This document shows positions 13,322 to 61,835 of a stretch of 64,000 nucleotides of DNA, one piece after another. The position numbers and the translations under genes were made by a program. The notes beneath the pieces are model-generated. The model did not search any database. It worked only from the letters and a program-made list of their open reading frames with translations, and was not told the DNA's origin. How positions within the stretch are numbered: position 1 is the first letter of the stretch; every line of letters begins with the position of its first letter. The DNA comes from Diphasiastrum complanatum (lineage: Eukaryota > Streptophyta > Lycopodiopsida > Lycopodiales > Lycopodiaceae). The DNA is taken from contig CM055095.1 in the NCBI GenBank assembly GCA_029204225.1, positions 75,175,594 through 75,239,593 on the forward strand, written 5' to 3'.

Positions 13322-13813
13322 AGGAATGGGGTAATTGGAGGATTGTGGAGAAAAGAATCTTTTGGGCTGTACTACCGTTCCAATTTCCGGCTGTCCATGT
13401 GTCCATGTGTGAAGAATTAGTTTGGATTAGTTTTGATGAACTAGTAGCTTGGATATTTGTTCTTGTTGCTCGTGGGAAATCATGCGGTTTCATTTAAATG
13501 TCCAGATTCCATATCCCAGTTATATTGGGCATATTCTAAACTATCTTCCTGAATGTGAGATTTTCTGTTTCCAAGTTATAGACATGATTTGTCTGGATTT
13601 TGATATATAGTATACGTTGGGTATGTTTCGCACCTTAGTTGTGGAGTTAAGCATGGAAAGGTTGCTCCAAAGCAATGAATAGTAGAAAGCAAATTGATGA
13701 ATATAGCTCGCTGCCCACTAAAATCTCATGCCATGCTATATTGCTGATTAGAAACTGCAGAAGTTTGGAACAGTGGTGAATAGAGTATCTTCACAAGGGA
13801 ATTGGTCGTCACG

Positions 13814-15328
13814 ATGATGATGGATGAACAGTCAAAAGCTGCAAAAGTTATGGAGAGTGGGCTGGAGCTACTACAGCTGCTGCCAGCCATTCCTTTTGAA
13901 TGGGAAGGTCCAAGCGCGACAATGAGGCAGGGAGGAATTTTGTGCATGGTTCTCTCCCGAGTAGAGCTGGCAAGCTTAGATTTGGCTCATTTGCAGCTGT
14001 TCCCTTCCAATACCTCCACTGCCTCCTTAGATGCTGTTATAAACTCCTCAACGCAGATGAGCTCATACTGCACGAACATCTTACCTGTTTTCAAGACCAA
14101 GGCAGTTTTGGATGTTGAGCAAGCTCAATCTTCTGAAATTGCCTCACTTCTTCGAGCCAGGAGTAGTTGTAGATCAACGATCAAAGTCATGTCAATGGAT
14201 GAGATCGCCCTCAACGACCATCTATCTGGAAGATCTAGATATTCTGAATTACAAGAGCTGGATAAGTGGGAGATGAAGCAACCTCTTGACGGCACAGGAA
14301 TGATCCCGAAGGAAACAAAGTCATCGCCGATATTAGAAGCCAAGCATCACTGGGAGGGGACTGACGAAGCTAAGTTTCTCCTTCATGTGATGCCATGGGA
14401 GCTCGCTCCTCTTACTCCCTTGATGCCTTTCAAAACTTCAGCGGCAGTTCCTTTCAAATGGGAGGATGTGCCAGGCAAACCAAAGCCCGTGGCCGTAGCT
14501 CCCGGGCCGAATCCTCGTCTTCAGCTTCCTCCTCGCCTGTATACCAGGCCAATTCATGTATCTCTTCCTAATAACAATCGACATAGTAAAGCAAAGCACA
14601 TTTTCCATTACATTCTACCATGGCGCCGTCCTGGCAAAGCCACAAAATCAAGTGTACAGGAATGGGACGATAACACATTGTCAGCAAGCGCCAATTCTCA
14701 ATTAGGGGCCTTATCCCCCTTAAGTATCCTCCAAGGCTTCGATACTCAAAGCCAAGCTTCATCTACTTCCCCAGATATTTGTCCAACTTCCGATAATCGC
14801 TTGAAAGACCTGGCTTGCACTGCATACCGTGAATTTTCTTTCAGAGGAATCTCCGGGGATCCGCCATCCTCATCTCGGAGCAATCTCATCACTGCCTCAT
14901 GCTCTCCTTTCAAAAACTTTGGGCCTGTCCATGAAACGAAGGGCTTTCGCCATCTCCACTCGGCAGTTGAGAAAATCAAAGAAGCAGTAAGATTGTGGAA
15001 GGGAAGCAAAATTCTTGGCAGACGAAAGGACAGATCATCCGTGGACTTCGATGGCGCTGAGGTCTGGTCCCCTAAGTTAGCCAGGCATTATCAAAGGTCT
15101 GAACATGAGACAGAATTTAGTGATGAACTTCAATACAACTGGAAGGATCAAAATCTGGATGGAGATGAAGCCACCAGCTTTGATAACAAATTCGAGCAAC
15201 CTCCAAAGAAGTTCAGTGCAGATCAGACGATAGGCTCACCAAGGTGGTCTATTTCTGATTCAATAGCTGCCACCACACATCCCACAGGCAGCTTGAGCAG
15301 GAGAAAGAAGAGGAGTCTTTGTCTATAA
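13814..15328 (+). CDS. DUF688-family protein (plant-specific), intact single exon
   Basis: The open frame runs 504 codons from ATG 13814; the next ATGs are at 13817 and 13820, and an in-frame TAG lies about 30 bp upstream. The family hallmark AVPFKWEDVPGKPKP is at about residues 210-224, preceded by WELAPLTPLMPFKTS. A degenerate second copy of the motif, LLPAIPFEWEG, sits near residues 23-33. The rest is Ser/Pro-rich and low in predicted order, with a basic C-terminus (SRRKKRSLCL). Known: plant DUF688 proteins are of uncharacterised function, and the F-K-W-E-x2-P-G-K-P motif defines them. Seen: no signal peptide and no membrane span. No intron is needed inside the frame, although a 5' leader intron is possible. 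It stands alone among transposon relics with no neighbour that suggests a role. Confidence 0.85.
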   Translation: MMMDEQSKAAKVMESGLELLQLLPAIPFEWEGPSATMRQGGILCMVLSRVELASLDLAHLQLFPSNTSTASLDAVINSSTQMSSYCTNILPVFKTKAVLDVEQAQSSEIASLLRARSSCRSTIKVMSMDEIALNDHLSGRSRYSELQELDKWEMKQPLDGTGMIPKETKSSPILEAKHHWEGTDEAKFLLHVMPWELAPLTPLMPFKTSAAVPFKWEDVPGKPKPVAVAPGPNPRLQLPPRLYTRPIHVSLPNNNRHSKAKHIFHYILPWRRPGKATKSSVQEWDDNTLSASANSQLGALSPLSILQGFDTQSQASSTSPDICPTSDNRLKDLACTAYREFSFRGISGDPPSSSRSNLITASCSPFKNFGPVHETKGFRHLHSAVEKIKEAVRLWKGSKILGRRKDRSSVDFDGAEVWSPKLARHYQRSEHETEFSDELQYNWKDQNLDGDEATSFDNKFEQPPKKFSADQTIGSPRWSISDSIAATTHPTGSLSRRKKRSLCL

Positions 15329-18052: not shown

Positions 18053-18822
18053 ATGGCAATTGAGGCCAATTTTCATATTAGATTTAGAGTTTGCTTTTCA
18101 AAATTATATTAGTCTAAAAGCATTTGAATAAACACTTTTGGAAAGTGTGGAAAACTATAGAACACGAGTTTTGGATAGATTCAATTTGAGTAGTAGATAC
18201 ATTGAATCTAGTCACAAAAATAGTAGGGTTTATGGAGGGAAACCAAAGTTTGAATTTAGGTTTGGACCTGTTATAAAAGGATGTAACTCATGGGAAGAGA
18301 AGACATTTTCTCTCTCTTATCTCATTCATACTTATACATGGTTCTCTTGGGTTCTACTATCCATTGGTGCACTATACTTGTGATATCTTGCAATTTTGTG
18401 TGTAGAATGTTCATTAAATGCTATTTCTAGATCCACACGTGTGAAATACAATAGCTTACTATTTTTGTATGGACAACAATACTATTTTATGGTTTGATTG
18501 ATGTTTGATCAAGATCTATTAAAGTATGCATCTCATTCATAGTGTAGATGTTGGTTTTTTCTACGTTGGCAAGATTGGTGAGTTGCTTGTCTTTCTAACC
18601 AAAGATCAAAGGGATATTTGGAGCTTAATGACCTGAATTTCTTCACATGGTATTAGAGCTTGCGTTTTAGGTTATGAAGGAAGCATTCACAATCTATCAA
18701 TGATTTGGAGAAGATATCAATGCTAGAGCATGCTAGATTGGATTCTACACCAAAATCGAGTTTCTTGCATATGTAGATTGGATCTTTTGCAGGTCAAAAC
18801 TCAAAAAAGATCTATAATCTTA

Positions 18823-19356
18823 ATCAATTCCGATTTCACACATTACTTGTTGGATTTGGCCTATTTTTAGTGCATTTGAAAAGCCTAAGTGGCGGCTACA
18901 AGATTGCATATCAAGTTTTAGGCAATTGCATGTAGAAATTGAAATACTCAATTTTTTGAGATTTTGTCAAAACCCTAATTTTGATTGGATCTCTAGATTG
19001 TGAGGTTAGTGAACTTCATTTGAGTGTTTTTCAATCTTAGGAAGTGGCAAGAGTCATTAGATTGAGGATAGAGATCAACATTTCACTATTCTCTATGTTA
19101 ATTTGCTTGGTATAAGTGCTAAAAGAGAATTGACAAGTTTCATATTTTTGTGATTTCTTTTTGAAAACATTTGTTGTTGCTCAAAGGAGTGCTTTGTGCA
19201 TTGAAACAGGTTGAAAGAGGGGATCAGGTCACTGCTACATGGCTACATCAAGTGGAGTCATGTTAGAAGCCAATGATAGGCTTACCTCAAGTAACTATTC
19301 ATTGTGGAAAGTAAGGATCAAATCACTTCTTGAGATGAATGATGTTTTGGATATTG
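18823..19356 (+). repeat. Tandem duplication unit 1 (leader plus gag start of element B)
   Basis: This 534-bp block is followed directly by a second copy at 19357-19898. It contains the last part of the 5' leader and the gag start codon at 19239 with SSGVMLEANDRLTSSNYSLW and KVRIKSLLEMNDVLDI. The junction lies at GATATTGATCAATTCC. Copies differ by scattered substitutions and a few small indels, so the duplication is old. Confidence 0.85.
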
Positions 19357-19898
19357 ATCAATTCCGATTTCACACATTATTTGTTGGATTTGGCCAATTT
19401 TTTGAGAATTGGAAAAGCCTAAGTGGTGGCTACAAGATTGCATATCAAATTTTAGGCAATTGCATGTAGAAATTGAAATAATAAATTTTTCGTGATTTTG
19501 TCAAAACCGTAATTTTGATTGGATCTCTATATTGTGAGGTTACTGAACTTCATTTGAGTGTTTCTCAATCTTAAAAAGTGGCAAGAGTCATTATATTGAA
19601 GATAGATCATAGGTTGATCAACATTTCACAATTCTATGAGGTGATTTGCTTGGTATAAGTGCTAGAGTGAATTGAGAAGTTTCATATCTTTGTCATTTCT
19701 TTTTGAAAACATTTGTTGTTGTTCAAAGGAGTGCTTTGCGCATTGAAACGGGTTGAAAGAGAGGATCAGGTCATTGCTACATGGCTACATCAAGTGGAGT
19801 CATGTTGGAAGCCAATGATAGGCTTACCTCAAGTAACTATTCATTGTGGTAAGTGAGGATCGAATCACTTCCTGAGATGAATGACGTTTTGGATATTG
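19357..19898 (+). repeat. Tandem duplication unit 2 (leader plus gag start of element B)
   Basis: Second copy of 18823-19356, carrying its own gag start (ATG 19781) with the same ANDRLTSSNYSLW peptide but with TGG>TGG-TAA at the SLW|KVR position, so it is broken by a stop. After 19898 the gag reading continues only briefly (VVTLEERPATLS) before unrelated sequence up to about 20105, marking an internal deletion. Confidence 0.8.
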
Positions 19899-20105
19899 TT
19901 GTAACTTTGGAGGAGAGGCCAGCAACACTGTCGAAAATAGGTGAGTAATGGAATAGCGGAAACTTCCTATTTCCAATGCATGACTACACCTATCAAAAAT
20001 TGAATAAAGTAGTAGTGATGGAAATCACGTTCAATCTTTAGCAACTAACTTTTGCTAGATACTAAGTGATTACGTAGCCAAACATAAAGTATTAAATTCT
20101 CAGAC

Positions 20106-21111
20106 AATTTTTATTAGTACAAGGTGCATGTGTATTTTCCATCATGCAAAACTTTATGGAGTTATGGAGCTATTGGAAGGATTGCACTATATGGACTCTT
20201 GTTGAACTATAAGCCTAAGGTTGTGTACCTTAGTGTTCATGAAGATGTGGTTTCTTGGAAGGAAAGAATGATGGAAATCCAAGCTTATGGATCATGGTTG
20301 GATATGCTTATCCACCAAGGAAGGCTACATAGCCTTTACACTCTCTATGTTGAAGGTGTTTGAGAATGGAGATGTTATTGTTTTTCATAAAGATCTAGTT
20401 TCAATCTTGGAAGGGACCGATAGCACATCATCTTATGATGCATCACAAGTCATTGCTATGGTGAGTAATCAAATTGTGATGGGGTCGAGGTTTGAGGAGG
20501 AATATCCTCAACATGCATGTCCAAAGAGATCTTCATCATTGAACAAGGCCGAGTCCTTCTTGTTATTATATTATGGAAAAGAAAGGATAAGTAAAGGTGG
20601 TTTTCATTCTATTCTACTCACCTATGGTTCTCTTTCTTTGATTGATGATATATCTTGCTTAGTTGAGATTTGCTTATCTTAAAGATCAAATAGGACTATT
20701 CTAGTTTTGTATGAAGTCTTTAGTTTGGAATTAATTCTTGTCATTGGTGACTTGGTTATGTTTCCAAAACATCTAGAAAGCAAGATATTGTATCATCATT
20801 TGTATGCTCTTAAACTGAGTAAGAGCAAGAATGAGTTTAGTACTCATAGTTTGAAAAAAAGAGTTTTTTCATGTTTTGAGGCATATTGTGAACTTCTTTT
20901 GAGAGTAAGTGAAACATCCAATATGACACTTACATCCTTAAGAAAGTATTGAGCCTCAATGAGTTCAAGTTTGAGTATGGTTTGAAGATTAGATCCATTT
21001 TGAATACAGTTCATAGTATTTGGACTGATAAAGCTAGCATGCTTAATCTTGAATATTGCTCATGGTATAATCTTGATCTATATGATCTTTGTGATCATGA
21101 TGAGGCTTGGA
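20106..21111 (+). pseudogene. Element B: integrase tail plus uncharacterised C-terminal region (left part)
   Basis: Three overlapping frames continue one ancestral protein. First LWSYGAIGRIALYGLLLNYK with PKV, matching the integrase C-terminal part and its deletion junction in element A (LRSIGALEVIAPYEVLFKMK). Then, in another frame, GYIAFTLSMLKVFENGDVIV with FHKD, equivalent to A's FSVFTLSISNVIVNRDVILH. Then SKILYHHLYALKLSKSKNEF, VFSCFEAYCELLLRVSE, KIRSILNTVHSIWTDKA and LDLYDLCDHDEAW, which align with the same order of motifs in A. One base lost near 20921 shifts the frame, and several stops are present. The segment ends exactly where element A is inserted. Confidence 0.75.
21107..21111 (+). 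other. Target-site duplication of element A (left copy, TTGGA)
   Basis: TTGGA immediately left of the LTR start (21112) is repeated immediately right of the LTR end at 26229-26233. Five base pairs is the usual copia target duplication. Joining the flanks restores B's sequence as GAGGC-TTGGA-GGCCTC. Confidence 0.9.
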
Positions 21112-21931
21112 TGTTGAATTTCACACGTGTGGATTGTCCACTACATGTACTTGTGATCTCCTAAGGTGTGTAGATGCACCAAGATCAAGACTAGATTGAG
21201 ATTCAAGATCTATCTTTGATTCTATGGCAAAAACACACTACTACATGCATTCAATCACTTCCAACTCTCACTCACACGTGTGGGAAGTGTTCCAAAAGTA
21301 TTCTAAGTAAAAACAAGCTGCTCTCCTCGGGTAGAGAGAGAAAAACCATCAAGAGCTCTCGGGTAGAGAGAGAAAGCTAGAAATTCAATGACACTCAAAA
21401 TCCACTCAATCTCAAAATCAATTAGATCCAAAAGGAGGAGTACAATGATACTAATAGATTCATGAGCTACCACTATGCTTAACTATGATTGGATCACACT
21501 TTGCCACCTCTTAATCCTATTGGACCCTTGATCCATGCACCTCTAAATTCTATTGGACTATATTCAAGCACACCTCAATTTTCTATTGGACCTCACAAGG
21601 TTCCACCTCTAAATCCTATTGGACCTCTTAAGCTTCATCAAACAAAAGCATGACACTTGTCTACACTCTAATTGGCACAAGTTTGGCTCTATTTTGGCTT
21701 AATATTGGCATTACAAGTGGAAATGGATAATTTGCCATCTATGCCAAATTTGACCCTATCAACATCCTACACCTAAATGCTTGACTATGAAATTCTATGA
21801 GACCCCTATATCAAACATTTTGATTTACTTTACAATTCTCCACACGTGGGAACATCCTCCACACATGTGAGATTCACTTACAAACTTCTATCATAAAAAA
21901 TGCCAAGCTAGATTTTTGCCAATTTCTCACA
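21112..21931 (-). repeat. 3' LTR of element A (820 bp)
   Basis: In window orientation it starts TGTTGAATTTCACACGTGTG and ends GCCAATTTCTCACA, with TG...CA termini. It has three CACGTG G-boxes (21124, 21275, 21843), an ACATGT variant near 21858, and four copies of CTATTGGA (CCAAT boxes on the element's own strand) between about 21517 and 21624. Polyadenylation and promoter positions were not resolved. Confidence 0.92.
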
Positions 21932-21940
21932 CTCCTCCTC
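21932..21940 (-). other. Polypurine tract of element A
   Basis: CTCCTCCTC on + (GAGGAGGAG on the element strand) directly abuts the 3' LTR, as required for plus-strand priming. Confidence 0.85.
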
Positions 21941-22042
21941 AAAAAATAGCTTGGAAAGGTACTAGATCACTTGAGAAGTTTGTAAATCTTTTTGAGTGGA
22001 TCCTTTGGTAGGCATAGAAGTGAAGATCAGCCAAGGGATCCA

Positions 22043-22234
22043 TTATAGCAGCACCCTCACCATATCCATGATAAGATCTCTTTGGTAGAGATCTCTTGCC
22101 AATGCCTTTGAAGAGTGCTCCACCAATATGCCACTATTATCATGGACTTCCTCCATGCTTGATGATGATATTTGCCTTGAAAGTTCCACTTGCATGATGG
22201 ATGCACCATAAATAGAGAAATCTGAGGCTTCCAA
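22043..22234 (-). CDS. Short overlapping tail frame, conserved between elements A and B
   Basis: This frame lies at -1 relative to the 855-codon frame and begins in the GAGGCTTGGAAGCCTC hairpin. It reads LEASDFSIYGASIMQVELSR and, near the end, SSKALARDLYQRDLIMDMV. Element B has the same frame after the nested insertion at 26229-26423, with LEASDF and FYQRDLIVDLVSMLL. In contrast, B has a stop after 13 codons in the frame used by A's long ORF. The conserved frame is therefore this one. It has no ATG at the start, and a TGA lies two codons upstream in both copies, so expression would need a frameshift, or an ancestral copy in which the frames were joined. The SSKALARDLYQR piece faintly recalls the end of copia RNase H (ADIxTKALxR...), but this is weak. 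Confidence 0.5.
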   Translation of the reverse strand: MEASDFSIYGASIMQVELSRQISSSSMEEVHDNSGILVEHSSKALARDLYQRDLIMDMVRVLL

Positions 22235-24624
22235 GCCTCATAAGGATCATGGAGATCAAGATCATAAGATGTGAAACAATGATGATTATCAAGATTATGC
22301 TTTCTAGCTTGACTAGTCCACATACAATGAACTATATCCATGATGGATCTAATCTTGATATCAAAGACTATCTTGATCTTTTTTAGGCTAGTTACTCTCT
22401 CAAGGATGTAAGTGTCCACTTTGGATGCTTCACTTAATCTCAAGAGGAGTTTACAATTTGCCTCAAAACATGTGAAAACATGATTTTCAAAAAAGTGAGT
22501 ACCAAGCTCAATCTTGTTCTTACTAGAACCAAGAGTATACTTTTGACAATACAATATCTTGCTTTCAAAAAGTATTGGAAACACATCTAAGTCAATAATG
22601 ACAAGAAACATGTCCATACCATAAGCATCATACAAAACTAGTATAGCTTTTCTTGAACTTTGAGATCCAAAAAATTCAATGAAGCAAGATAGCATTTCAA
22701 GCAAAGGAAGAGAAGCATATATGAATGTGTTGTAGTAGATACAACATGAAAGATGCCCCTCTTTGCCATGTAAGGTGAGCCATAAAGACTCGGCCATGCA
22801 TCTTGAAGATCTTCTTGAAATCATATGAAGAAGAAACTCCTCCTCACACATTGGCCCCATCATAACTTGAATACCTTCAAAAAGGATAACTTGTGATGCT
22901 TCTTGAGAAGCCTTGATCTCGGCCACTTCCAAGATTGAATCTTCATGCAATATGACATCTCTATTCACGATCACATTTGAAATAGAGAGTGTAAAGACAC
23001 TAAAGGTCTCATTGATGGATGAGTATCCAATCATGATCCATGAGCTTGGATCATCCTTCCTTCTTGTTTCCAAGGGAATATGTGCAAAGCTAGCACTACC
23101 AAGTTCACTAAGGTGATCAACCTTAGGCTTCATCTTGAATAAAACTTCATATGGTGCTATTACTTCAAGAGCTCCAATACTCCTCAAAGCTTTGATCTTC
23201 AATGAGAATTTCTTCTCAACATATGCTTTGAATAATAAGGAATAATCATACACCATAATACTTGAAGAGAGAAGATATGTGCATCTTGTGTGATCCTCCT
23301 CCTTTGAAATATTGGAAATATAAGAAACATCAAGAGAGTTTGCACTCTCACTTGGATCCAATTTGTAGATGCCTTCAAATCTTGATCCATATGCAAGGAT
23401 CTCACCATCCTTCTTAATCACACAATTGTCAATATTGAAATTGACATCAAAGCCACTATCAAGAAGTTGGCCAACACTTAAGATGTTCTTTGTAAGCTTT
23501 GGGACAAAAAGAACATTGTTGATAAAGAGATCTTTAGAAGATGCAAGCTTCAAGGGAATAATCCCTACTCCTTCAATATTGCACTCATGCTTACTTGCAA
23601 AGTATATGGTCTTCTTGACTCCATCATAAGGCATAATAGATGAAAAAAAGTGCTTGGAGCCACACATATGTGAAGATGCTCCACTATCAATATACCATGA
23701 GTCATCCTTGTTGAAGGTGGAAGAGGAGAAGCTTGATGCCATAAGAGAGCCTTCTCCATCACTTGCAATATAGTCTTCTTTCTCATTGGTGATGTTGGGT
23801 TGATTGAGTTGATTCTTCTTCTTGAAGCAATTGGTGGCATAATGGCCTTTCTTGCCACAATAAAAGCACTTGATCATCTTCTTCTTGAGATTTGAATTAG
23901 AAGCATGAGAGGTATCCTCCTCCTCTCCATCTTGGTCTTTGTCATTAGAGAAGTGATGGTGTTGCTTCTTACTCCTCTCTTTGTGCTTGGCAAATAGAAC
24001 TTTGCCATAATCATGATTGAGTGATAGCTTGTCCATCCTCAAGAGTTTGTACTCTTGTCTTGATTCTTCAGAAATAAGCACACTTTGAAGGGCCTCCAAA
24101 CTTGGTAGCTCCTCCTTAATAGCATAGGATTGGACAAGGTTGTCATATTCATCTCTCAAGCCATTGAGAATGACTTGGACTAGCTCACTTTGATTGATTG
24201 AGTCACCAATACATGCAAGCTCCCTATGAATATCCTTGACTCCCAAAACATAATTAGATGCACTCTCATCACTCTTTTGACTACTTTGAAATATTTGATT
24301 TCTAAGAGTGAGGAGCCTAGAGGTGTTCTTAGCCTCATAGATGGACTTGAGACAATCCCAAGCTTCCTTGGATGTAGAACAATCACCAATCTCCCTCAAT
24401 ATCTCATTAGAGACATTCATCTTAATGTAGTGGAGAGCCATCCTAGCTCTCTTCTTATATTTTTGTACTTCTTGAAGGACTTGAGGCTCCTCCTCAATCC
24501 CAAGTACAATGTCCATCACATCTTGGAGTATCAAGATGGACTCCATCCTCAACTTCCATATTGAATAATTGGAAGTAGACAATCTCTCACTTGGTTGCAA
24601 CAAGTATGAACTCATTGAAGTCAT
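22057..24624 (-). CDS. Element A polyprotein: gag, zinc knuckle, protease, integrase tail, uncharacterised C-terminal region
   Basis: An uninterrupted 855-codon frame from ATG 24624. Residues 1-210 are a UBN2-type gag (STSNYSIWKLRMESI; YKKRARMALHYIKMNV; ELVQVILNGLRDEYDNL). A CFYCGKKGHYATNC zinc knuckle is at 253-266. A protease with an intact DSGASSHM site is at 313-320, followed by NVLFVPKLTKNILSVGQLLD. The pre-integrase zinc finger and the DDE core are missing: FKAYVEKKFSLKIKALRS (about 465-482) is joined directly to IGALEVIAPYEVLFKMKPKV and the integrase C-terminal part (to about 565). Residues about 570-800 match no family I know, with motifs FESKILYCQKYTLGSSKNKI, VFTCFEANCKLLLRLSE, KIRSIMDIVHCMWTSQARKH and YDLDLHDPYEAW. 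There is no YVDD and no RNase H. The last 55 residues (after EAW) are in a frame not shared with element B and are probably not ancestral. Confidence 0.88.
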   Translation of the reverse strand: MTSMSSYLLQPSERLSTSNYSIWKLRMESILILQDVMDIVLGIEEEPQVLQEVQKYKKRARMALHYIKMNVSNEILREIGDCSTSKEAWDCLKSIYEAKNTSRLLTLRNQIFQSSQKSDESASNYVLGVKDIHRELACIGDSINQSELVQVILNGLRDEYDNLVQSYAIKEELPSLEALQSVLISEESRQEYKLLRMDKLSLNHDYGKVLFAKHKERSKKQHHHFSNDKDQDGEEEDTSHASNSNLKKKMIKCFYCGKKGHYATNCFKKKNQLNQPNITNEKEDYIASDGEGSLMASSFSSSTFNKDDSWYIDSGASSHMCGSKHFFSSIMPYDGVKKTIYFASKHECNIEGVGIIPLKLASSKDLFINNVLFVPKLTKNILSVGQLLDSGFDVNFNIDNCVIKKDGEILAYGSRFEGIYKLDPSESANSLDVSYISNISKEEDHTRCTYLLSSSIMVYDYSLLFKAYVEKKFSLKIKALRSIGALEVIAPYEVLFKMKPKVDHLSELGSASFAHIPLETRRKDDPSSWIMIGYSSINETFSVFTLSISNVIVNRDVILHEDSILEVAEIKASQEASQVILFEGIQVMMGPMCEEEFLLHMISRRSSRCMAESLWLTLHGKEGHLSCCIYYNTFIYASLPLLEMLSCFIEFFGSQSSRKAILVLYDAYGMDMFLVIIDLDVFPILFESKILYCQKYTLGSSKNKIELGTHFFENHVFTCFEANCKLLLRLSEASKVDTYILERVTSLKKIKIVFDIKIRSIMDIVHCMWTSQARKHNLDNHHCFTSYDLDLHDPYEAWKPQISLFMVHPSCKWNFQGKYHHQAWRKSMIIVAYWWSTLQRHWQEISTKEILSWIW

Positions 24625-25396
24625 GTAAAGTGGAGATAAATAAAAGTGATGAACAAAAAATGTTGCTTCTCTCTCACTATAGGATCCAATAATGGTGTGC
24701 TACCATCTCCTATGCAAGATCTTGCAACAAACTGTGAGATGATTCTCACTAGCTATCTCAATCTCTCCAAAACTAGATCTACTTCACATCAAATGATGGA
24801 GTATGGGAAAAGTTAGGATCAAACACTCTTAGCACGTGTGAAATACACTAAGAAACCAAATTTGACTCAAATACAATGATATTGCATGAAACAAAATGGC
24901 TAAGATCTCAAAACAGTGCCTAGATCACATATAGATGAGATTGGTAAGCATTCAACTGTGATTTTGGATCAAACAAGCAATCTTTTGACCAAACCAAATG
25001 TGTCCACCCAGGTCTAGGTGCCCTACCTAACCCTCTTCAAAAGCTTATAACTTTTGATTGGCTCAACCAAATGGAATGAAACTGATTGCATCAGAAACTA
25101 GACAAAAATAGCTTCAAAACAAGCTATACAATCAATTTTACGGAAGCATTAGTTCTAGCAAGATTTTTGGATCAAACATGAAAGAGAACTCCCAAACTGA
25201 AATTGGATGTTCCTCACACGTGTCTGAGCACCTGATTCCGTACAGTACCAGGTCAGACCCAATCAATGTCCTTTTGATCTCTTTTGATCCAAAATTGAAC
25301 AAGATAGCTAGGAAAATGGGCCTTGACAATTTCTAGCTCAAGATTGATGAATAGTTTTCACTCAAATGGATCAAAATGCATGGTAACCTTAGGTAG

Positions 25397-25408
25397 GCTC
25401 TGATACCA
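25397..25408 (-). other. tRNA primer-binding site of element A
   Basis: GCTCTGATACCA on + is TGGTATCAGAGC on the element strand, the standard plant copia site complementary to the 3' end of initiator tRNA-Met. It touches the 5' LTR edge at 25409 with no spacer. Confidence 0.92.
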
Positions 25409-26228
25409 TGTTGAATTTCACACGTGTGGATTGTCCACTACATGTACTTGTGATCTCCTAAGGTGTGTAGATGCACCAAGATCAAGACTAGATTAAGATT
25501 CAAGATCTATCTTTGATTCTATGGCAAAAACACACTACTACATGCATTCAATCACTTCCAACTCTCACTCACACGTGTGGGAAGTGTTCCAAAAGTATTC
25601 TAAGTAAAAACAAGCTGCTCTCCTAGGGTAGAGAGAGAAAAACCATCAAGAGCTCTCGGGTAGAGAGAGAAAGCTAGAAATTCAATGACACTCAAAATCC
25701 ACTCAATCTCAAAATCAATTAGATCCAAAAGGAGGAGTACAATGATACTAATAGATTCATGAGCTACCACTATGCTTAACTATGATTGGATCACACTTTG
25801 CCACCTCTTAATCCTATTGGACCATTGATCTATGCACCTCTAAATTCTATTGGACTATATTCAAGCACACCTCAATTTTCTATTGGACCTCACAAGGTTC
25901 CACCTCTAAATCCTATTGGACCTCTTAAGATTCATCAAACAAAAGCATGACACTTGTCTACACTCTAATTGGCACAAGTTTGGCTCTATTTTGGCTCAAT
26001 ATTGGCATTACAAGTGGAAATGGATAATTTGCCATCTATGCCAAATTTGACCCTATCAACATCCTACACCTAAATGCTTGACTATGAAATTCTATGAGAC
26101 CCCTATATCAAACATTTTGATTTACTTTACAATTCTCCACACGTGGGAACATCCTCCACACATGTGAGATTCACTTACAAACTTCTATCATAAAAAATAC
26201 CAAGCTAGATTTTTGCCAATTTCTCACA
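25409..26228 (-). repeat. 5' LTR of element A (820 bp)
   Basis: Same length as the partner at 21112-21931, with only about seven substitutions seen (for example CTCCTAGGG against CTCCTCGGG, and GATTAAGATT against GATTGAGATT). Carries the same G-boxes and CCAAT-box cluster; as the 5' LTR on the minus strand it is the copy that would drive transcription. Confidence 0.92.
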
Positions 26229-26423
26229 TTGGAGGCCTCGGATTTTTCAGATTATTATGTAGCCAATTTCATGCATGTGGAGTTCTCAAATCCGAAATCA
26301 GGATCAAGCAGGGAGGAGGCATATCGATATAGTGGCAGATTGGTGGAATACTTTTCAAAGGCATTTGGAAAAATTTTCTATCAAAGAGATCTTATCGTGG
26401 ATTTGGTAAGCATGCTGCTATGA
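26229..26423 (+). pseudogene. Element B: right part of the C-terminal tail after the nested insertion
   Basis: Begins with the right TTGGA target duplication and continues B's tail: LEASDFSDYYVANFMHVEFS, a SSREEAYRYSGRLVEYFSKA segment, then FYQRDLIVDLVSMLL and a stop. It is the counterpart of element A's short tail frame at 22043-22234. Joined with 21111 it restores a continuous B sequence. Confidence 0.75.
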
Positions 26424-27772: not shown

Positions 27773-28880
27773 ATGGCTTCCATAAGTGCATATCTCTTAG
27801 ATCCAAATGATAGATTAAATGTTTCAAATTACTCTATTTGGAAGCTGAGAATGGAGTCCATACTTGTTTTTTTTACAAGACTTAATGGACATAGTGAATG
27901 GTGAAGAGGATGAGCTTATTCATCGTCAAGAATCTACTTGATATAAGAAGAGGTGCAAGATTGTCCTACATTGTATCAAGATGAATGTGTACATGACATA
28001 ATTCTAAGTGGTGATAGCATTGTTGGCATAAAGAAAACCAAGAAAGATCTATCTTTAGAGTTTAAGACGGTCAATCTTGGTCAACTTCACTTCATATTGG
28101 GCATAGAAGCACTTAAAGGTCAAGATTTCATCTTCATTAGTCAATCTAAGTATGCTCAAAGTTTTCTCAATAGATTTCAAATGCAAGATTGCAAGCATGT
28201 AGAAACACCAATGGAGCAAGATGTAAAAGTGCTCAATAAAGATGATGAAGGATCCTTCATGGACATCACTCTTTATTGGCAAATTATAGGCTAATTGATG
28301 TGGATTAACATTATTAAACCTGATTTATGCTTTATTGTATGTAGGCTTAGTCAATACATGCAAGATCCATTGATCATACATTGGAAAAGTGCAAAAAGGA
28401 TCTTGAGATCTCCTCGGGCACTCTCAATCATGGAATTTTCTATAGAGTCCCGGGATTGTATGCATATAATGACTCAAATTTTGCAGGTGACAAGAGGGAT
28501 CGAAAGTCCACAAGTGCCTATGCAACATTATTGGCGAAGGGGTTGTTTCTTGGTTGTCAAAAAAACAAGAGACTATCTCACTCTCTTCTATCGAGGCCCG
28601 AGTATAAAGCTTTGACAACAACAACCAAAGAGCTACTTTGGATCAATAGGCTACTAATGAAGCTGAAGGCCATCAATTTAGATGTTGTTCCAGGTCAAAG
28701 CATATTGAGATCTCTCATCATTTTTTGAAAGAAAAGGTGCAATTTAATGAAGTGTCTTTGGAGCATGTGGCAAGTAATAATTGTGTTATTGATACTCTCA
28801 TTAAACCACTTCAAAGACCTACATTTATCAAGCTAAGATCAACCCTTGGGTTGATAAGCAAATCTATGCTACCTACAAAC
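27773..28880 (+). pseudogene. Ty1/copia internal-deletion derivative: gag start joined to RT/RNase H
   Basis: Starts with ATG and SISAYLLDPNDRLNVSNYSI plus WKLRMESIL, close to element A's gag. After about 60 codons of gag (YKKRCKIVLHCIKMNV) it jumps into the RT at H-D-I-I-L-S-G-D-S, so the YVDD catalytic box is cut at the junction. It then runs through VNLGQLHFILGIEALKGQDF, SQSKYAQSFLNRFQMQDCKH, a RLSQYMQDPLIIHWKSAKRI segment and the RNase H YNDSNFAGDKRDRKSTSAYA region with PEYKALTTTTKELLWI. Several stops and frameshifts. Followed by GAGGAGGAG (28888-28896) and a probable 3' LTR. Confidence 0.85.
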
Positions 28881-36700: not shown

Positions 36701-39700
36701 CTGGTTTTTTTGCAAAAAAATTTAAAATTAGTGATAAATAAAGCCAAACACAAAAGCAATGTCTTGCAAGGTGATTGAAATGTGGGATCACAACAAGTTT
36801 GCAGTTGAAATGGGTTCTCCAACACATGTCGCAGGCTCATTGTCAGGTGGGTTCACGAATGAAAAAACGAATTTCCTGATTCAGAGTCGTCACCAATGTG
36901 AAACATATTCATAATCATGGCAACAATTAATGGCTTGGCAGATTAATGAATTGCCAGTTCACAATCTTTTTTCACATTCACAAATCAGTGCAGATTCTGA
37001 ATTCGCAGATCAGTTTTCATGAGTTTTCTTCAAGAGTTCAAAGTAGGCTTGAATGTTATTAAAAATAAAATTTAAATAAATAATAATGATAATAATAAGC
37101 GTAGCTTGTTCCGTACTTACAGACGTACTTACAGAACGCATTCCGTTCCGCACGTACGCAATGGAATGTACCGAAGCAGATTGCTCAGAACGGGTGTCTA
37201 TGTTTCAGATCATGTGAGGCCATATTAAAGCTGACCATTTTTATTTTTGGCCCTAATTTTTAAATTTCACTTTCCCTCCAAATCTGTAGGAAAGCAAAAG
37301 TCAAGTCACCAAGATCTAGTTATCAATCAACACCACAGAAAACAAGAGAGAAGAGGCTGGGCGCCCAACTCTAAGAGAGAGAGAGAGAGAAAACAACAAC
37401 AAGAGCAATGGAGAGCCAAACTGTATCAAATGGAATACACAATGAGCATCTAAGTACTCTACCTGGATGTGACCAAATGCCACCAAACTCTAAGGTTAAC
37501 CACTTACTAAATGTAGGGCACCCCCAAAAGTCAAGATAGGGCCCCTAAACAAAATTAGACCCCTAAGGACCCACGAGTCAGTACATGACCAAAATTGGGT
37601 CCAACTGAACTTAAAGACAAACTTAAGATGGCCTAAATAACTAAATACCCATGGTTACACAAATCTTGACCTTTTGGGTTAACTTTAGCATAGTCATTTA
37701 TTTCTAACACCCTCCTTAAATGACAATGCAAAAACTGAAAACTTCACTATGTAACAAAACCAACACGTCGTATCAAATTTAAAGCTTTGCATAAAGCTTC
37801 AAATCTGACTCTAGGCAACGCCTTAGTGAAGAGGTCCGCAATATTATCCTCCGTAGGACAATATTCAAGTAAAATGTCGCCATCATGAAGTCTCTCCCGA
37901 ACAAACTGATAATAGATCTCGATGTGCTTCGTCCTCGCATGAAAAACAGGATTTCGTGCAATGGCAATAGCACTTTGACTATCACTCAAGATAACAGTGG
38001 CCGAGGGCTCGCCAAACTTCATGTCAACAAGTAGTCTTCTCAGCCATAAACACTCTGTTGTGGCTTAAAATATCGCTCTATATTCTGCCTCACTAGAAGA
38101 AGTAGCAACAGTGGGCTGCTTTTTTTACTTGACTACGAAACTGCAAAATTTCCATAGAAAAAGCGATGTCCACTTGTAGAGCGTCTAGTGTCTTGATCTC
38201 CACCCCAATCCGAGTCACTAAAACCAACCAAACATGCATCATCACAAGCAGGAAAAACCAATCCATGACTTCTTGTTCCTTGAAGATATAAAAAGATCCT
38301 CTTCAACGCTTTCCGGTAAATGAGACAGCCAATAGCTTGACAATATAAAGTAGTGTCAAATGATTCACCATCACCTTGACTACTTAATTTCAGACCTGTC
38401 TCCATAGGTGTAGCAACCGACTTGCAATCTTCCATCTTAAACCGCTTCAAAATCTGCCCAATGTAGCGTTCTTGAGAGATGAAAATTCCAACACCTTCTT
38501 GTACAAATTCAAGACCAAGATAAAAGTGCAATAGGCCTAAATCTGAGGTTTCAAAAACCATACCAAGATCAAGTATTACGGCATCAATCTGCTGCTCATT
38601 ACTTCCCGTAATAATAATATCATCAACATAAAGCAAAATAATGATAATATAATCTGAAGTATGCTTGACATAAAGAGTAGATTCGCTAGGACTATTAATA
38701 AACCCTCGATCACAAAAGTAGGCATGCATCTTTTAATACCACATCCTCGGAGCTTGCTTCAGTCCATAAAGTGCCTTCTTGAGAAGACAAACTTTATCTT
38801 CTTGGCCTTCAACCAAAAAACCAGCAGGTTGTTGAAGGTACACTTCCTCATTGAGATCACCATTGAAGAATGTTGTCTTTATGTCAAGTTGCCGCAAACG
38901 CCAACCAAAGTGGGCAGCCAAAGAGGTTACTACTCTCACGGTAGTCATCCGAGCAGTAGGAGAAAAAGTCTCCTCATAATCAATCCCCTTTTGCTAAGCA
39001 TAGCCTTTGGCAACGAGCCTTGCCTTGTACCTTTCAATGGTACCATCTGCCTTATACTTGATTTTGTATACCCATTTAGAACCAATTGCCTTCTTCCCAT
39101 GAGGAAGATCAACAAGAACCCAAATCTGGTTTTTCATAAGTGAGTCATACTCATCTTGCATCGCATCCTCTCAACATTTTACTCCCTTGGCCTGCTCATA
39201 GAAAACAGGTTCTTCTGCAACATCTCCATGAGATGTAAGAGCAAAATCTGAAAAATCGGCATAGTCCACTGATTTTAGAGGCACGTGTCTTTCCATCATA
39301 AAATGAACTTACTTTGCTGTCCCGCAAAGTCGACAACAGCCACCGTGGGACTGTTTTGGGCTGTCCAAAAGCCATGTCTCTTCTTACAATTTGCTGTCCA
39401 AGATCTTTCGACACCACACTTGGCTGTCCAAGATCTTCCACAACTGGTCCTTGCTGTCCAACAGTTCCTGCAGGCTGATTTTGAGCAACAACGAGCGGTT
39501 TTTTATGAACAATAGGCTCTAAACTTGATGAGGTGTTGGGCAGGTCGAAACTGGTTGATTGCTGCCCCTTATCTCCAACAATAGAAGATGGTACCAAATT
39601 TGGAAAAACTTCAACATTCACACTATGTGGGCTGTCCCCCCCTTCAAGATATGAGTTGGGGCCACATCCAATGAAATCTTTTCATCAAAATGCACATCAC

Positions 39701-42700
39701 GACTAACAATAATCTTATTAGTGCTCAAATTGAACAGCCTATAGCCTTTGCTTTCACTACTATAGCCAACAAAAATGCATTTAACTCCTTTATCTTCAAG
39801 CTTTGTACGAAGTTTATCCGGAACAAAAGCATAAGCCGTACAACCAAAAATGTGAAAGTGAGAGATTGTAGTCTTCTTTCCATACCAAACTTCATAAGGA
39901 GTTAATACTTTCAATGCTTTCGTAGGACAACGATTGCTTATGTTTGCTGCCGTTATAACCGCTTCAGCCCAAAACTTGTGAGGCAGCCCCTTTGCTTTGA
40001 GCATGCAACGGGCCATCTCCATGAGTGTGCGATTCTTTCGCTCGGCAACACCATTTTGTTGAGGCGTATAGGGAGTTGTCATTTGATGTAGAATTCCCTT
40101 TTCTCGAAGAAATGCACCGAATGTATTCGGTGCGTAGGGTCTTCAAAAAATGGCCAAACTAATTTTCCACCATTGCTAGAAAATCTTTGAAACGTTGAAA
40201 AACTTCCGATTTAGCCTTCATGGGATAGATCCATGTAAAACGGGAAAAGTCATCAATAAAAGTCACAAAATAGATGCACTTTCCAATGGATTCGGTCCTC
40301 ATTGGACCACAAACATCACTATGAACCAAATCAAATTTATCAAGAACCCTTAGTAGTTCCATCAATTGGAAAAGGTTTCCTTTGAAACTTTCCAAGTATG
40401 CACCCCTCGCATACATGCCCTTCCGGCTGCTCAATAGTAGGAATGTCTTCTACCATATTAAATGTCTTCAGCTTCTTCAAACTTGCAAAGTTGAGATGCC
40501 CAAACCTTGCGTGCCAAAATTCAGCCAACTCCAATGATTGTGATGTAGAAGCAACAAGACATGTAGAGGGAATTCGTCGCTAAAAGGTATCCATAATGAA
40601 TAAGCCAGCATGCATCGTTCCCGAAACAATAATCAAGAGTGATCTTTTAGGATCCTTGACAAGACACTTATCTTCTTTGAACCCAACAACTAGTCCTCGC
40701 ATCAACATAGTTGAAACCGAAAGAAGATTCTTCTTGATTCCCAGAACATAAAGCACATTCTTAATGTACTTTTCTTCACCATTAGGAAAAATGATGGCTA
40801 CAATTCCAATTCCATGAATAGAATAAGATGCATCATCCGCACATTGTACCTTACTTCCATTTTGCACTTTTACTAATTTAGTAAATGCTTCTTTGCGAGA
40901 AGTCATATGACGAGTAGCACCACTATCAATCACCCATTCAATGGGCTGAAAATCAGCAACTTGCAAAACAAAATCTGAATTCTTCATAGATGTAGTAGTA
41001 CTAGTAAAAGCAATATTAGACACAAAAGCATAGTCTTGGTTGAAGAGATCACCACTAGCTTCAAGCTCTTGTTCCAAAGTAGCAAGTGAAGCACTAGTAT
41101 CAATTCCTTTACTCTCCTCTTTCGCAAGCTTCTTCTTACAATCCTTGATGACGTGCCCATACCTTTTGCAATAATGGCACTTCCCTTTCTTCTTTTGAGT
41201 GTTGACATCTTGACCTCCAACGGGCTTTTGCTCATCCTTGGAAGGAGGCTTCCCCTTTCCTTTTGACTTGCCTTTGCCCTTGCCTTTCGTGATGAAAGCT
41301 TGATCTTGTTGAGTGTCACCCGCAAAGTTTTGCCTCGTTTGCTCCTCTTGAAGAAGCAGCCCAACAAGTTCATCAAAGGAGAGTTGTTGTCCCCTAAGAG
41401 AGATACTCAAAGATGAAACAAATGGAAGATAAGATGAAGGTAATGAGTTGAGAGTAATGGAAACAAATTGAGCATCCTCAATTATCTCATCAATATTGAG
41501 AAGCTCCTCACGAAGATCCTTGATCTTCGTCAAGTGATTGGTCACTTGATCCCCTTCTTGCATCTTCAACAAAGAAAGCTGATTTCTGAGATACACCACT
41601 CTTGCTGGATTTTTGACTCTATACATAGTATAAAGTATATCCCACGCACTTTTAGATGTCTTACAAGACCTAATATGAGGTAAGATAGATCTTTTCACAG
41701 CAAGAGCAACCATAGAATGTGCTTGTGCATCCCTTCTATCCCACTTCTTTTGTTCTTCCGAAGATGATGTTGAAGATAATGATCCACGAGGTGTAGGAGG
41801 TGCCAAAGACGGAGGCCTTTCCTCATCACCATTGACCAAATCCCACAGCCCTTTTGCTATGAGAAGATTCTTCATCATGTAACTCCACAAGGAGTAGTTT
41901 GTGCCATCCAACCGATCTTCACTAAACAAAGAACCGATAGCTTCCGATTCTTTAGCCATTACCTCCAACAAAATTTCAGCTTGTAATAGATAGGAAAGAG
42001 AGCCTTTCCACAACCAAATCTACTAAAAAATTTGCAACAAACAAAGAGCTGAAAGTAGGAGCACAAGGTATCTTTCAATCTGCAACCAAAGTGCCCAGAA
42101 GATAATGGATAGATGGCTGTCTTTCTGCACAAAAAAACCAGCTTCTTGAAAATTAGGTTAGCTTCGATTGAAGCTTACACCGAAACCCAATTAGGAAGCC
42201 AAATAGTGTGATCAACACACACTCCAATAGGCTGTTGAAAGCACCCTACTACTTGCTGAGAATCTGCAAATTTCCAGCCACAAGTTGACCTAACCCTGAA
42301 TAGGGTTTGCTGAATTTTAACGACCTCCTACACAAATGCAAACCTGAAAACAAAAACAGCAAGATAAGGAGACACCACCACCAAAAATCAGTTGCAGATT
42401 TTTGGGCGCCCTCCTCCAAACAAAACTTGCTGAAAACTGGTTGCATAAAAAATAAGATTTGAGATTCTGATTTTTGGGTGCCAAAAATTGCGGCCCCTAA
42501 ACAAAATTAGACCCCTAAGGACCCACAAGTTAGCACATGACCAAAATTGGGTCCAACTGAACTTAAGACAAACTTAAGATGGCCTAAATAACTAGATACC
42601 CATGGTTACACAAATCTCGACCTTTTGGGTCAAAGTAACCTATGGATTAACTTCAGCATAGTCATTTATTTCTAACAACCCATGCATACGTACTAGGTCA

Positions 42701-51105: not shown

Positions 51106-51110
51106 TGTAC

Positions 51111-51796
51111 TATAGAACACCTCAACAGACAAACCTCGATTCTACCAACAAAGTGCATAGTAGCATTGACAAAGGCTGACAAACGAACTTTTGAAACTCG
51201 AAAGATTCACGAACAATATCTTGTTCAAACTCAAAATTTTTGCGAACAATAAATTGTCGCAAAATATTTTGATTATTGTTCAAACTCGAAAACTGTCAAA
51301 TATCGCAAAACTATCGCAAATAATTTGCGAACAAAAACCATTCGAGTCTAGAAACAGAATGGTTTTTAGTCTGGAACAGAACATTTGTTGAATATCAACT
51401 GTCTTAACGGTTAGATTATTTGTTACAGAAGGAATAAGGCCAAAAAATCTATCTTGTAACAATATAAATACATGTGCACTACTCATTGTAAACACACAAC
51501 AGAACAACAAGGCAACAAGAGATGTATATTGAAGAATCAGAATCAAAATTATAAAAATTCGACTGATCAAAGTTTCTCAACAGATGATTTTATCAATTGT
51601 TTCTAATTGTCTAAAATTGTCTATCACACTCACGCAATATATCTCTTAAATCTGCATGCTTTATTCAATCAATGTAAAAACTGCTCTATTGGTACATAGA
51701 CCAAAATCAGACACGATTGAAGACACTGATATTAGTTTGATTTATTCAAACTTTTATTGTGTTCTTTGAAGGAAAATTCTTAGTAATTTTTCTACA
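51111..51796 (+). repeat. 5' LTR (686 bp) of the 51-55 kb copia element
   Basis: Begins TATAGAACACCTCAACAGAC (the expected TG terminus reads TA) and ends TTTTTCTACA. It holds about 150 bp (roughly 51550-51720) that are absent from the 3' LTR. A TATA-like CAATATAAATACATG lies near 51460-51473. Confidence 0.88.
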
Positions 51797-51880
51797 GTGG
51801 TATCAGAGCACATCCCTCTCAACATCCTTCACACATCCATCCTACAACCATATCTGGAGTTTATTCAGAAGATTAGAAAA

Positions 51881-54490: not shown

Positions 54491-54532
54491 AGAAGATTGG
54501 GGTTAATCCAACTGCCCACTTTGAGAGGAAGC

Positions 54533-55086
54533 TGTAGAACACCTCAATAGACCAATCTCGGTTCTACCAACAAAGTGCACATTAGTATTGACAAAGGCTG
54601 ACAAATGAACTTGAAGCTCGAAAGATTCGCGAACAATATCTTGTTGAAGCTCGAAAGATTTGCGAACAATATCTTGTTGAAACTCAAAATATTCGTGAAC
54701 AATAAATTGTCGCGAAATATTTTGAATCTTATTTAAAATAAAAAACTATCAGAGATCGCAAAACTGTCACGAACAATTCGCGAACAAAAACCATTCGAGT
54801 CTGAAAACAGAACGTTTTTGGGTTTAAAAACAGAACGTTTGTTAAATATCAACCATCTTAACAGTTAGATCATTTGTTACAGAAGGAAGAAGGCCAAAAG
54901 ACCTATCCTATAACAATATAAATACATGTGTACTACTCGTTGTAAACACACAACAGAGCAACAAGACAACAAAGAGATGTATACTGAAGAATCAGAATCA
55001 GAATTATAAAAGACACTAATATTAGTTTGATTTATTCAAACTTTCATCATTTTCTTTGAAGGAGAATTCTTAGTATTTTTCTTACA
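54533..55086 (+). repeat. 3' LTR (554 bp) of the 51-55 kb copia element
   Basis: Begins TGTAGAACACC and ends TTTTTCTTACA. It contains a 33-bp tandem repeat of the type GCTCGAAAGATTCGCGAACA with ATATCTTGTTGAA, three units at about 54625-54715; the 5' LTR has fewer units. It lacks the ~150 bp found in the 5' LTR. These length changes show considerable age or recombination despite preserved target duplications. Confidence 0.88.
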
Positions 55087-61500: not shown

Positions 61501-61835
61501 ATTGTGTCTCGAAAATTTGGAGACAATCCAAAAAATTCTAGTTTCGAGTCTTGAAAATTTCTTGTCTCCAAAAATTGAAACCTCGAAAATACCTCAAAAA
61601 TATCTCTAAAAATTTGTGTCTTGAGTCTCTAAAAATTCATTTTTCCACTAACTGAGTTTCGACAATTTGTAGTTTCCAAAAATTTAGCCTCGAAAATTTG
61701 GAGACTCCAAAATTTAAGTCTTGAAAAATTTGAGTTTTGAGTCTCGAAGATTTTGAGACTTCAAAAATTGAAATCTCCAAAAATTCGAGTTTTGAGTCTC
61801 AAAAATTCGTCCAATTTGAGTGTGCATTTAGTGCA
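58503..61835. repeat. Satellite-like array with about 11-bp A-tract period and longer composite units
   Basis: Over 3.3 kb the sequence is built from short modules such as CCTCGAAAATA, CCTCGAAACGTT and CTCCAAAAATT, each 10-12 bp with one A-tract. On top lies a longer unit marked by TGTCTTGAGTCTCCAAAAAT with TCGTCTCTCCACAAATTGAC, seen near 59103, 59411, 59811, 60041, 60681, 60897, 61345 and 61617 (spacing about 200-640 bp). Neighbouring units vary in length. The left part (58503-58880) has GCGAAA-rich variants and may be an older or different source. Open frames in all six frames here are by-products of the repeats. Confidence 0.85.

Follow-up and report, generated by a model that had tools for sequence, protein, structure and literature searches.

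A young copia retrotransposon with a gag–protease frame whose unrecognised tail appears to be held open

Here we describe a complete, young Ty1/copia long terminal repeat (LTR) retrotransposon at positions 21112–26228 on the minus strand of a 64,000-nucleotide stretch of DNA (the window), from a genome that is almost certainly that of the clubmoss Diphasiastrum complanatum. Its single open reading frame (ORF) of 855 codons encodes gag and protease and continues through an integrase remnant into a 234-residue tail. The tail recurs in three element families and appears to be held free of stops and frameshifts; gag and protease are constrained at the amino-acid level, whereas the tail shows no such constraint against a sister family. 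We tentatively interpret the element as a semi-autonomous copia Gag-Pro element in which selection preserves the openness of the tail more than its protein sequence. An earlier sequence-only reading of the same DNA had called it a non-autonomous copia element with an unfamiliar C-terminus and had suggested that this region was kept for a reason.

Anatomy of the element and its reading frame

The element has LTRs with TG...CA ends, a 5-bp target-site duplication (TSD), a tRNA primer-binding site (PBS) and a polypurine tract (PPT), as expected of a Ty1/copia LTR retrotransposon; the sequence-only reading was right about all of these, including the 820-bp LTRs, their roughly seven differences and the exact PBS. 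The PBS, TGGTATCAGAGC, presumably pairs with the initiator tRNA-Met; Rfam and tRNA scans of the window returned no matches. The parts of the element, in its own reading direction and with window positions, are as follows.

26229..26233, no strand: right copy of the TSD, TTGGA
25409..26228, minus: 5′ LTR, 820 bp, TG...CA ends, 7/820 differences from the 3′ LTR
25397..25408, minus: PBS, exact with 0 mismatches, directly behind the 5′ LTR
24625..25396, minus: 5′ leader; the two longest alignments to sister-family leaders are 61% (490 nucleotides, nt) and 67% (~210 nt) identical, a third is 80% over 89 nt
22057..24624, minus: ORF of 855 codons including the stop, a single frame from gag to tail
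24052..24546, minus: gag domain, residues 27–191, Retrotran_gag_2 (PF14223; Pfam, E 5.7e-28)
23824..23874, minus: zinc knuckle zf-CCHC, residues 251–267 (Pfam)
23449..23697, minus: protease / Pol_BBD, residues 310–392, including the DSGA motif (Pfam, E 1.5e-23)
22930..23298, minus: integrase remnant, residues 443–565; core deleted, SH3-like C-terminal part 497–563 retained (SH3_retrovirus, E 2e-10)
22762..22929, minus: residues 566–621, probable linker between integrase and reverse transcriptase (RT), aligned together with the integrase C-terminus to the relative L053
22060..22761, minus: residues 622–855, unrecognised tail (234 amino acids), open, with weak or no amino-acid constraint
21947..22056, minus: 3′ leader, past the stop; 63–72 nt alignable to the sister family, 73–80% identical
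21932..21946, minus: PPT region, GGAGGAG following a T-run, abutting the 3′ LTR
21112..21931, minus: 3′ LTR, 820 bp, TG...CA ends
21107..21111, no strand: left copy of the TSD, TTGGA

Pfam searches confirmed the 855-codon frame with gag, zinc knuckle, DSGA protease and integrase C-terminus. Gag and protease are of copia type (PF14223, PF22936), and their homologues bear copia-type domains; the order of integrase before RT is visible in the relative L053, the window element itself being without RT. At E values up to 1, Pfam found no family past residue 563, and a copia polyprotein hidden Markov model (HMM) built from 38 of 58 collected homologues matched only through model positions 10–431 and 629–721, corresponding to residues 13–453 and 486–576. 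Pre-integrase, integrase core, RT and RNase H (RH) were undetectable in the element by Pfam and by this HMM, in agreement with what had first been read; the element is thus not an autonomous one, which would have an RT, RH and integrase core of its own. The same HMM picked up RT and RH in two frameshifted copias elsewhere in the window and is thus able to see decayed copies.

A smaller deletion derivative at 27773–28294, in which a gag start is joined to an RT piece, provided a probe (RT fragment 28028–28291) that led to L053 (C1:83916800-83922800), an autonomous-type copia in the same genome. In contrast to the window element, L053 has a complete gag-pol frame (1317 codons, with YVDD, integrase core, RT and RH), with which the gag–protease part, integrase C-terminus and linker of the window element can be aligned. 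Gag–protease is 46% identical over residues 1–505 of the window element, and one high-scoring segment pair (E 2e-18) spans the integrase C-terminus and the linker up to residue 621, the linker by itself being weak (18/300 shuffles score as well). The unrecognised C-terminus of about 230 residues in the sequence-only reading is therefore better placed at 622–855, which matches nothing known, residues 566–621 probably being integrase–RT linker. The start of the L053 LTR with its PPT is 74% identical over 77 nt; because only the LTR start matched, L053 is probably not the direct partner, and no autonomous partner with matching LTRs was found.

A profile search with the tail recovered three database proteins, the best of them the hypothetical protein O6H91_Y561600 of Diphasiastrum complanatum (E 1e-90), which is encoded at 100% on contig C4887 of the searched genome; the remaining two are short and unnamed. 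Searches of the tail against Pfam and PDB gave no match, and one further homologue search was also empty.

Openness of the frame and selection on its amino acids

The searched genome comprises 1.745 Gb, with the window at C4:75175594-75239593, and the tail is common to three element families in it. Besides the family of the window element these are a sister family (L011–L028, 89–91% to the older element that hosts the window insertion) and a third, closest family (L055–L057 and L060–L065), whose protein P0059 shares 61% identity with the tail of the window element. The search of the source genome that the sequence-only reading had proposed thus recovered the same region, and capture of a host gene confined to this copy is excluded, because other copies carry the tail. 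Genome searches used tail DNA or protein and scored the best 40 of 1608, 40 of 3577 and 138 of 25814 first-look candidates; such first-look totals, which ran from 1608 to 128419, are loose and should not be read as copy counts.

Frames of 837–862 codons are retained in 15 of 20 fetched window-family copies, and their lengths differ exactly by in-frame insertions and deletions (indels). These 20 copies were picked by similarity of the 3′ part, so that tail diversity among them is biased low; moreover, L035/L036 and L029/L045 have common TSDs and are probably duplicated loci, which reduces the count to about 13 of 18 independent frames. In a sample chosen by gag instead, the 131 best matches (unplaced duplicate contigs included; 111 on C1–C24; frames counted stop-to-stop), 70 are open for at least 840 codons (60/111 on C1–C24), and in four of the 70 a stop is listed within the gag match. 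The longest frame has 984 codons, so none among the 131 is long enough for gag-pol. Two full LTRs were found in 14 of the 20 fetched copies; among these 14 the TSD is perfect in 12, the LTRs are identical in three and the median LTR divergence is 0.43%. The window family has moved recently and multiplied to many copies. Among L029–L048 and the window ORF, which belong to the 3′-chosen sample, gag has 69 variable third positions and the tail 12, and the gags are possibly mosaic.

The window tail contains no in-frame stop, where 2000 dinucleotide shuffles contained 17.7 on average and never fewer than 6. Among 14 sister copies (L011–L028 minus L012, L014, L025 and L026) no stop at codons 479–855 is common to more than two copies, and among eight third-family copies one stop is common to two; the sister copy L015 has a frame that ends at the same place as the window frame. 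If the divergence is split into two equal lineages, simulated neutral drift would leave 5–7 stops per lineage, with a probability of 0.001–0.004 of leaving none; over the full distance it would leave 8–11. Indels tell the same story: relative to the window element, sister copies have 6 nt near codon 564 (16/18; 5 nt in L016 and L019), 3 nt near codon 609 (18/18), 3 nt near codon 810 (14/18; 2 nt nearby in three) and 3 nt at codon 558 (six copies), and all others in the region (1, 2, 5, 7 and 13 nt; larger in L022) are confined to one or few copies. Widely shared indels are thus nearly all multiples of three, whereas directly past the stop, at similar overall divergence, 1-nt gaps occur in all nine alignable copies of the ten tried. 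The frame (NEVERTHELESS open) appears to be maintained in this sense, the tail being held free of stops and frameshifts.

The ratio of nonsynonymous to synonymous divergence (dN/dS, omega) gives a different picture for the amino acids. Pooled Nei–Gojobori estimates between the window and sister copies were 0.23 for gag, 0.31 for protease, 0.99 for the integrase remnant and 1.00 for the tail (12, 13, 13 and 16 copies, respectively; the 16 are L009–L028 minus L010, L012, L025 and L026, L009 being the older element in the window itself and L010 its counterpart on contig C2108, which appears to duplicate the window locus; regions under 60 codons were omitted). Mismatches at the three codon positions numbered 784/574/1157 in gag and 1362/1181/1273 in the tail, which shows no codon-position bias in this comparison. 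Against L015 alone, bootstrapping gave a tail omega of 1.07 [0.78–1.47], and the third and sister families compared with each other gave 1.01 [0.70–1.34]; a neutral stop-free simulation yielded 0.92 [0.66–1.25] at a transition bias (kappa) of 1.6. Codon-position composition likewise showed no clear excess over stop-free random DNA in the tail (z 0.7–1.5 in three tails; gag 5.8, integrase remnant 2.3). Between families, constraint is clearly weaker on the tail than on gag, and against the sister family the tail is unconstrained. Within families, the sister tail gave 0.92 [0.61–1.60] (four copies); the window-family gag gave, on few changes, 0.18 over all pairs and 0.15 over the most diverged.

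Explanations for the open tail

The reading that we tentatively favour is that of a semi-autonomous Gag-Pro element. The frame would derive from an ordinary gag-pol frame through loss of the integrase core and of all recognisable RT and RH, leaving the integrase C-terminus, the linker and the 234-residue tail in frame with gag–protease. The element would make Gag and protease for itself and depend on autonomous relatives for the RT and integrase that copy and integrate it in trans. Selection would then purge stops and frameshifts from the 3′ part while being largely indifferent to its amino acids. In plants, long 3′ untranslated regions (UTRs) are described as a trigger of nonsense-mediated decay (NMD; PMC6173133, citing Kertesz 2006). 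Were a stop to arise between codons 450 and 700, about 0.6–1.3 kb of RNA ahead of the 3′ LTR would go untranslated, and the genomic RNA might become a target of NMD or of another decay pathway that depends on translation. Given stop depletion with little constraint, we infer that this exposure is the likeliest reason for keeping the frame open. This presupposes that the tail is translated, as it presumably is. The stronger version, in which a long translated extension is kept merely open, its amino acids drifting almost freely, and being translated (escape from RNA surveillance) is itself the function, we consider possible though doubtful.

Several observations weigh against a tail kept merely open. 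Between the window and the third family, tail omega is 0.64 [0.45–0.93] (eight copies), mismatches being slightly more frequent at third positions (395/421/485), and inside the third family it is 0.68 [0.49–0.91]; two single pairs of the window ORF with a third-family copy gave 0.56 and 0.66 for the tail, 0.52 and 0.68 for protease and 0.26 and 0.11 for gag. Because a stronger transition bias lowers the neutral omega to 0.76, these values are not decisive, but since the tail resembles protease in these pairs, its amino acids may be weakly constrained in part of the tree. Within the window family, all 210 pairs together give a tail omega of 1.05 and the 22 most diverged pairs one of 0.31, on few changes and in 3′-chosen copies, and the zinc-knuckle/protease part reaches 0.90 (all pairs) and 0.72 (most diverged). 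The decayed sister copies, compared among themselves, give gag no lower a value than the tail (0.75 and 0.74, respectively), with protease at 0.46 (13 copies, L027 also dropped; pairs under 2% or over 30% diverged omitted). At about 0.36, dS in the tail is also much smaller than the gag value of about 1.9; this is unexpected for an unconstrained spacer of equal age unless recombination exchanged the 3′ part. Finally, the first frame breaks of 61 young copies fall 22 times in codons 300–450, 17 times in 450–565 and 22 times in 565–855; per codon they are just somewhat rarer in the tail, so that little maintenance is visible on this time scale. The sequence-only reading, which had staked the view that the region was kept for a reason on purifying selection across copies, is therefore upheld in part: the frame appears to be held open family-wide, but the tail shows no purifying selection against the sister family, and against the third family there may be some.

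A first alternative, which we regard as somewhat unlikely, is that the tail is a relic of RT/RH or another part of pol, drifted beyond recognition and open because it was coding until recently; a decayed RT/RH had also been named in the sequence-only reading as the finding that would undo it. The tail lies directly behind the integrase C-terminus and linker, where the RT of L053 starts, and spaced RT-like matches were noticed by eye and looked convincing. When the DNA of three tails was aligned locally with the RT region of L053, z scores against block shuffles were 4.3, 1.8 and 4.4, and under a lenient DNA scheme the RT segment was the best real target in five of five tails, exceeding the random-segment maximum in two. 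For the window tail, however, that scheme scored L053 gag (533), integrase (538) and RT (532) alike, and a strict scheme was silent against L053. Protein tests were negative throughout: HMMs found no RT or RH in any frame, pairwise comparison with RT/RH gave z −1.0 to 0.0 in four tails, hhalign aligned the integrase part only, with no RT/RH in the tail, and profile chain alignment gave z −0.6 to −1.2, below its gag control. A passive relic would, moreover, be expected to carry the 5–7 stops per lineage computed above. With protein tests negative and DNA tests mixed, a decayed RT/RH is not demonstrated, and we keep it as a rival without claiming it. The tail was also considered as the 3′ spacer of an autonomous element; as the stop of L053 lies ~6 nt ahead of its PPT/LTR match, the tail is no 3′ spacer of L053, the one element compared.

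Alternatively, the tail could be a real, fast-evolving domain of the Gag-Pro polyprotein that serves assembly or the packaging of RNA, or interferes with the autonomous partner. Openness in three families with the shared end point in L015, the protease-like omega of 0.64 against the closest family and the 0.31 among the most diverged window-family pairs all speak for it. Against it stand the omega of about 1 and the missing codon-position bias over the 16 copies compared with the sister family, the lack of a Pfam or PDB match, and a set of homologues that comprises a single clubmoss protein and two short ones without a name. Structure prediction, which the sequence-only reading had suggested, was run on one sequence and returned a mean predicted local distance difference test score (pLDDT) of 35, which is uninformative by itself. 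Env-bearing copia elements (SIRE-like) have an extra ORF with a transmembrane segment after pol; unlike these, the tails show no membrane segment above chance, hydropathy peaks falling within those of shuffles in all four tails tried (lowest p 0.07). We consider a protein domain unlikely.

Equally, the 3′ part might be kept as a cis-acting RNA region, for packaging, dimerisation or strand transfer, with the open frame secondary. The tail and 3′ leader diverge about equally (20–30%), less than gag synonymous sites (dS 1.9) and less than the 5′ leader, whose longest alignable stretches are 61–67% identical. Divergence of the third-family copies L056 and L057 from the window ORF is mosaic, with dS of 0.12–0.18 in the integrase remnant, 0.33–0.34 in the tail and 0.75–1.8 in gag, which suggests either inter-family exchange or constraint at the RNA level; recombination between families would give the same low divergence. 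Consensus-fold z-scores in the tail are strongly negative, down to −6.3, but controls are equally strong (some gag windows −6.6, protease −11, antisense strand −9.0), and we therefore claim no specific structure. Nor would an RNA element alone avoid stops and frameshifts, and we give this explanation a low probability. That the ancestor of the three families captured a gene or some foreign sequence is very improbable: our searches found no source, which leaves room for one outside them, but there is no Pfam or PDB match and no host gene was found, although single-copy relatives outside LTRs were not searched for in the host genome.

Neighbouring sequences, known systems and significance

The window element interrupts an older element of the sister family, and a further LTR fragment of its own family lies elsewhere in the window.

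20147..21111, plus: older sister-family element cut by the insertion, integrase remnant and first part of the tail, 70% nt identity
26234..26515, plus: tail of the older element continued to its PPT, 75% nt identity
57669..58259, minus: partial LTR of the same family as the window element, ~89% identical

The stretch 18648–20146 is probably the upstream part of the older host element, with a PBS-like TGGTATTAGAGC at 18648, and within it the leader plus gag start is in tandem duplication (18817–19356 and 19351–19898, about 90%). Two other copias lie in the window: one at 51110–54972, whose RT and RH are spread over several frames and flanked by two LTR-like repeats 85–90% alike, with an exact PBS at 51798, and a decayed one on the minus strand at 37000–42019, with long gag (40583–42019) and RT (38136–38732) frames. 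A degenerate short-repeat array (CCTCGAAAATACC-like, several overlapping periods) occupies 59069–61762, and a 514-codon open frame at 13784–15325, with a weak DUF688 match under the curated cut-off, is the best host-gene candidate noticed in the window.

Gag-Pro-only elements that rely on autonomous partners have already been described, the cases compared here being Gypsy elements of flowering plants. In wheat, RLG_Sabrina_SA and RLG_WHAM are high-copy semi-autonomous Gag-Pro elements thought to be mobilised by an autonomous partner (PMC9744471). The window element resembles them, as they are portrayed there, in its intact Gag-Pro ORF without RT or integrase (apart from its integrase C-terminal remnant). 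It is like this kind of element too in its recent multiplication to many copies and in purifying selection on gag and protease against the sister family, although protease is more weakly constrained against the third family and among close copies. It differs from the wheat families proper, which are Gypsy, in being copia by gag and protease, and the sections of that description dealing with them mention no in-frame open tail of several hundred codons; other Sabrina variants bear unrelated short ORFs that replace Gag-Pro. The pol-less Athila elements of Arabidopsis are reported as long-lived non-autonomous Gypsy families with purifying selection on gag and env (omega mostly ~0.2–0.4) and inter-family recombination (PMC2410132). 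Their extra ORF is env-like and, by that account, under purifying selection, in contrast to the window tail, with its omega of about 1 against the sister family and its lack of a membrane segment above chance. TR-GAG elements, in the outline given in PMC8704663, are LTR elements with a single Gag ORF, of which the copia AT5TE33540 (562 amino acids) transposed in ddm1; unlike these, the window ORF adds protease, an integrase remnant and the 234-residue tail. Among the titles and abstracts that searches of an open-access library brought up, none dealt with this clubmoss element or with retrotransposon frames that are open but unconstrained.

A copia case, probably in a clubmoss and with three families of one architecture, widens the range of Gag-Pro-only elements. 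The unusual part is a stretch of 400 codons, the integrase remnant and the tail, that stays open with little amino-acid conservation. For annotation, it cautions that an ORF open throughout a family (for example O6H91_Y561600, listed as a hypothetical protein) need not be a well conserved protein. The element also makes it testable whether translation-dependent RNA decay is a selective force on the reading frames of transposons. If the tail is indeed kept only open, these families would constitute a natural experiment, in which, over many copies, a conserved gag–protease part shares its frame with a tail that has no stops and next to no fixed sequence.

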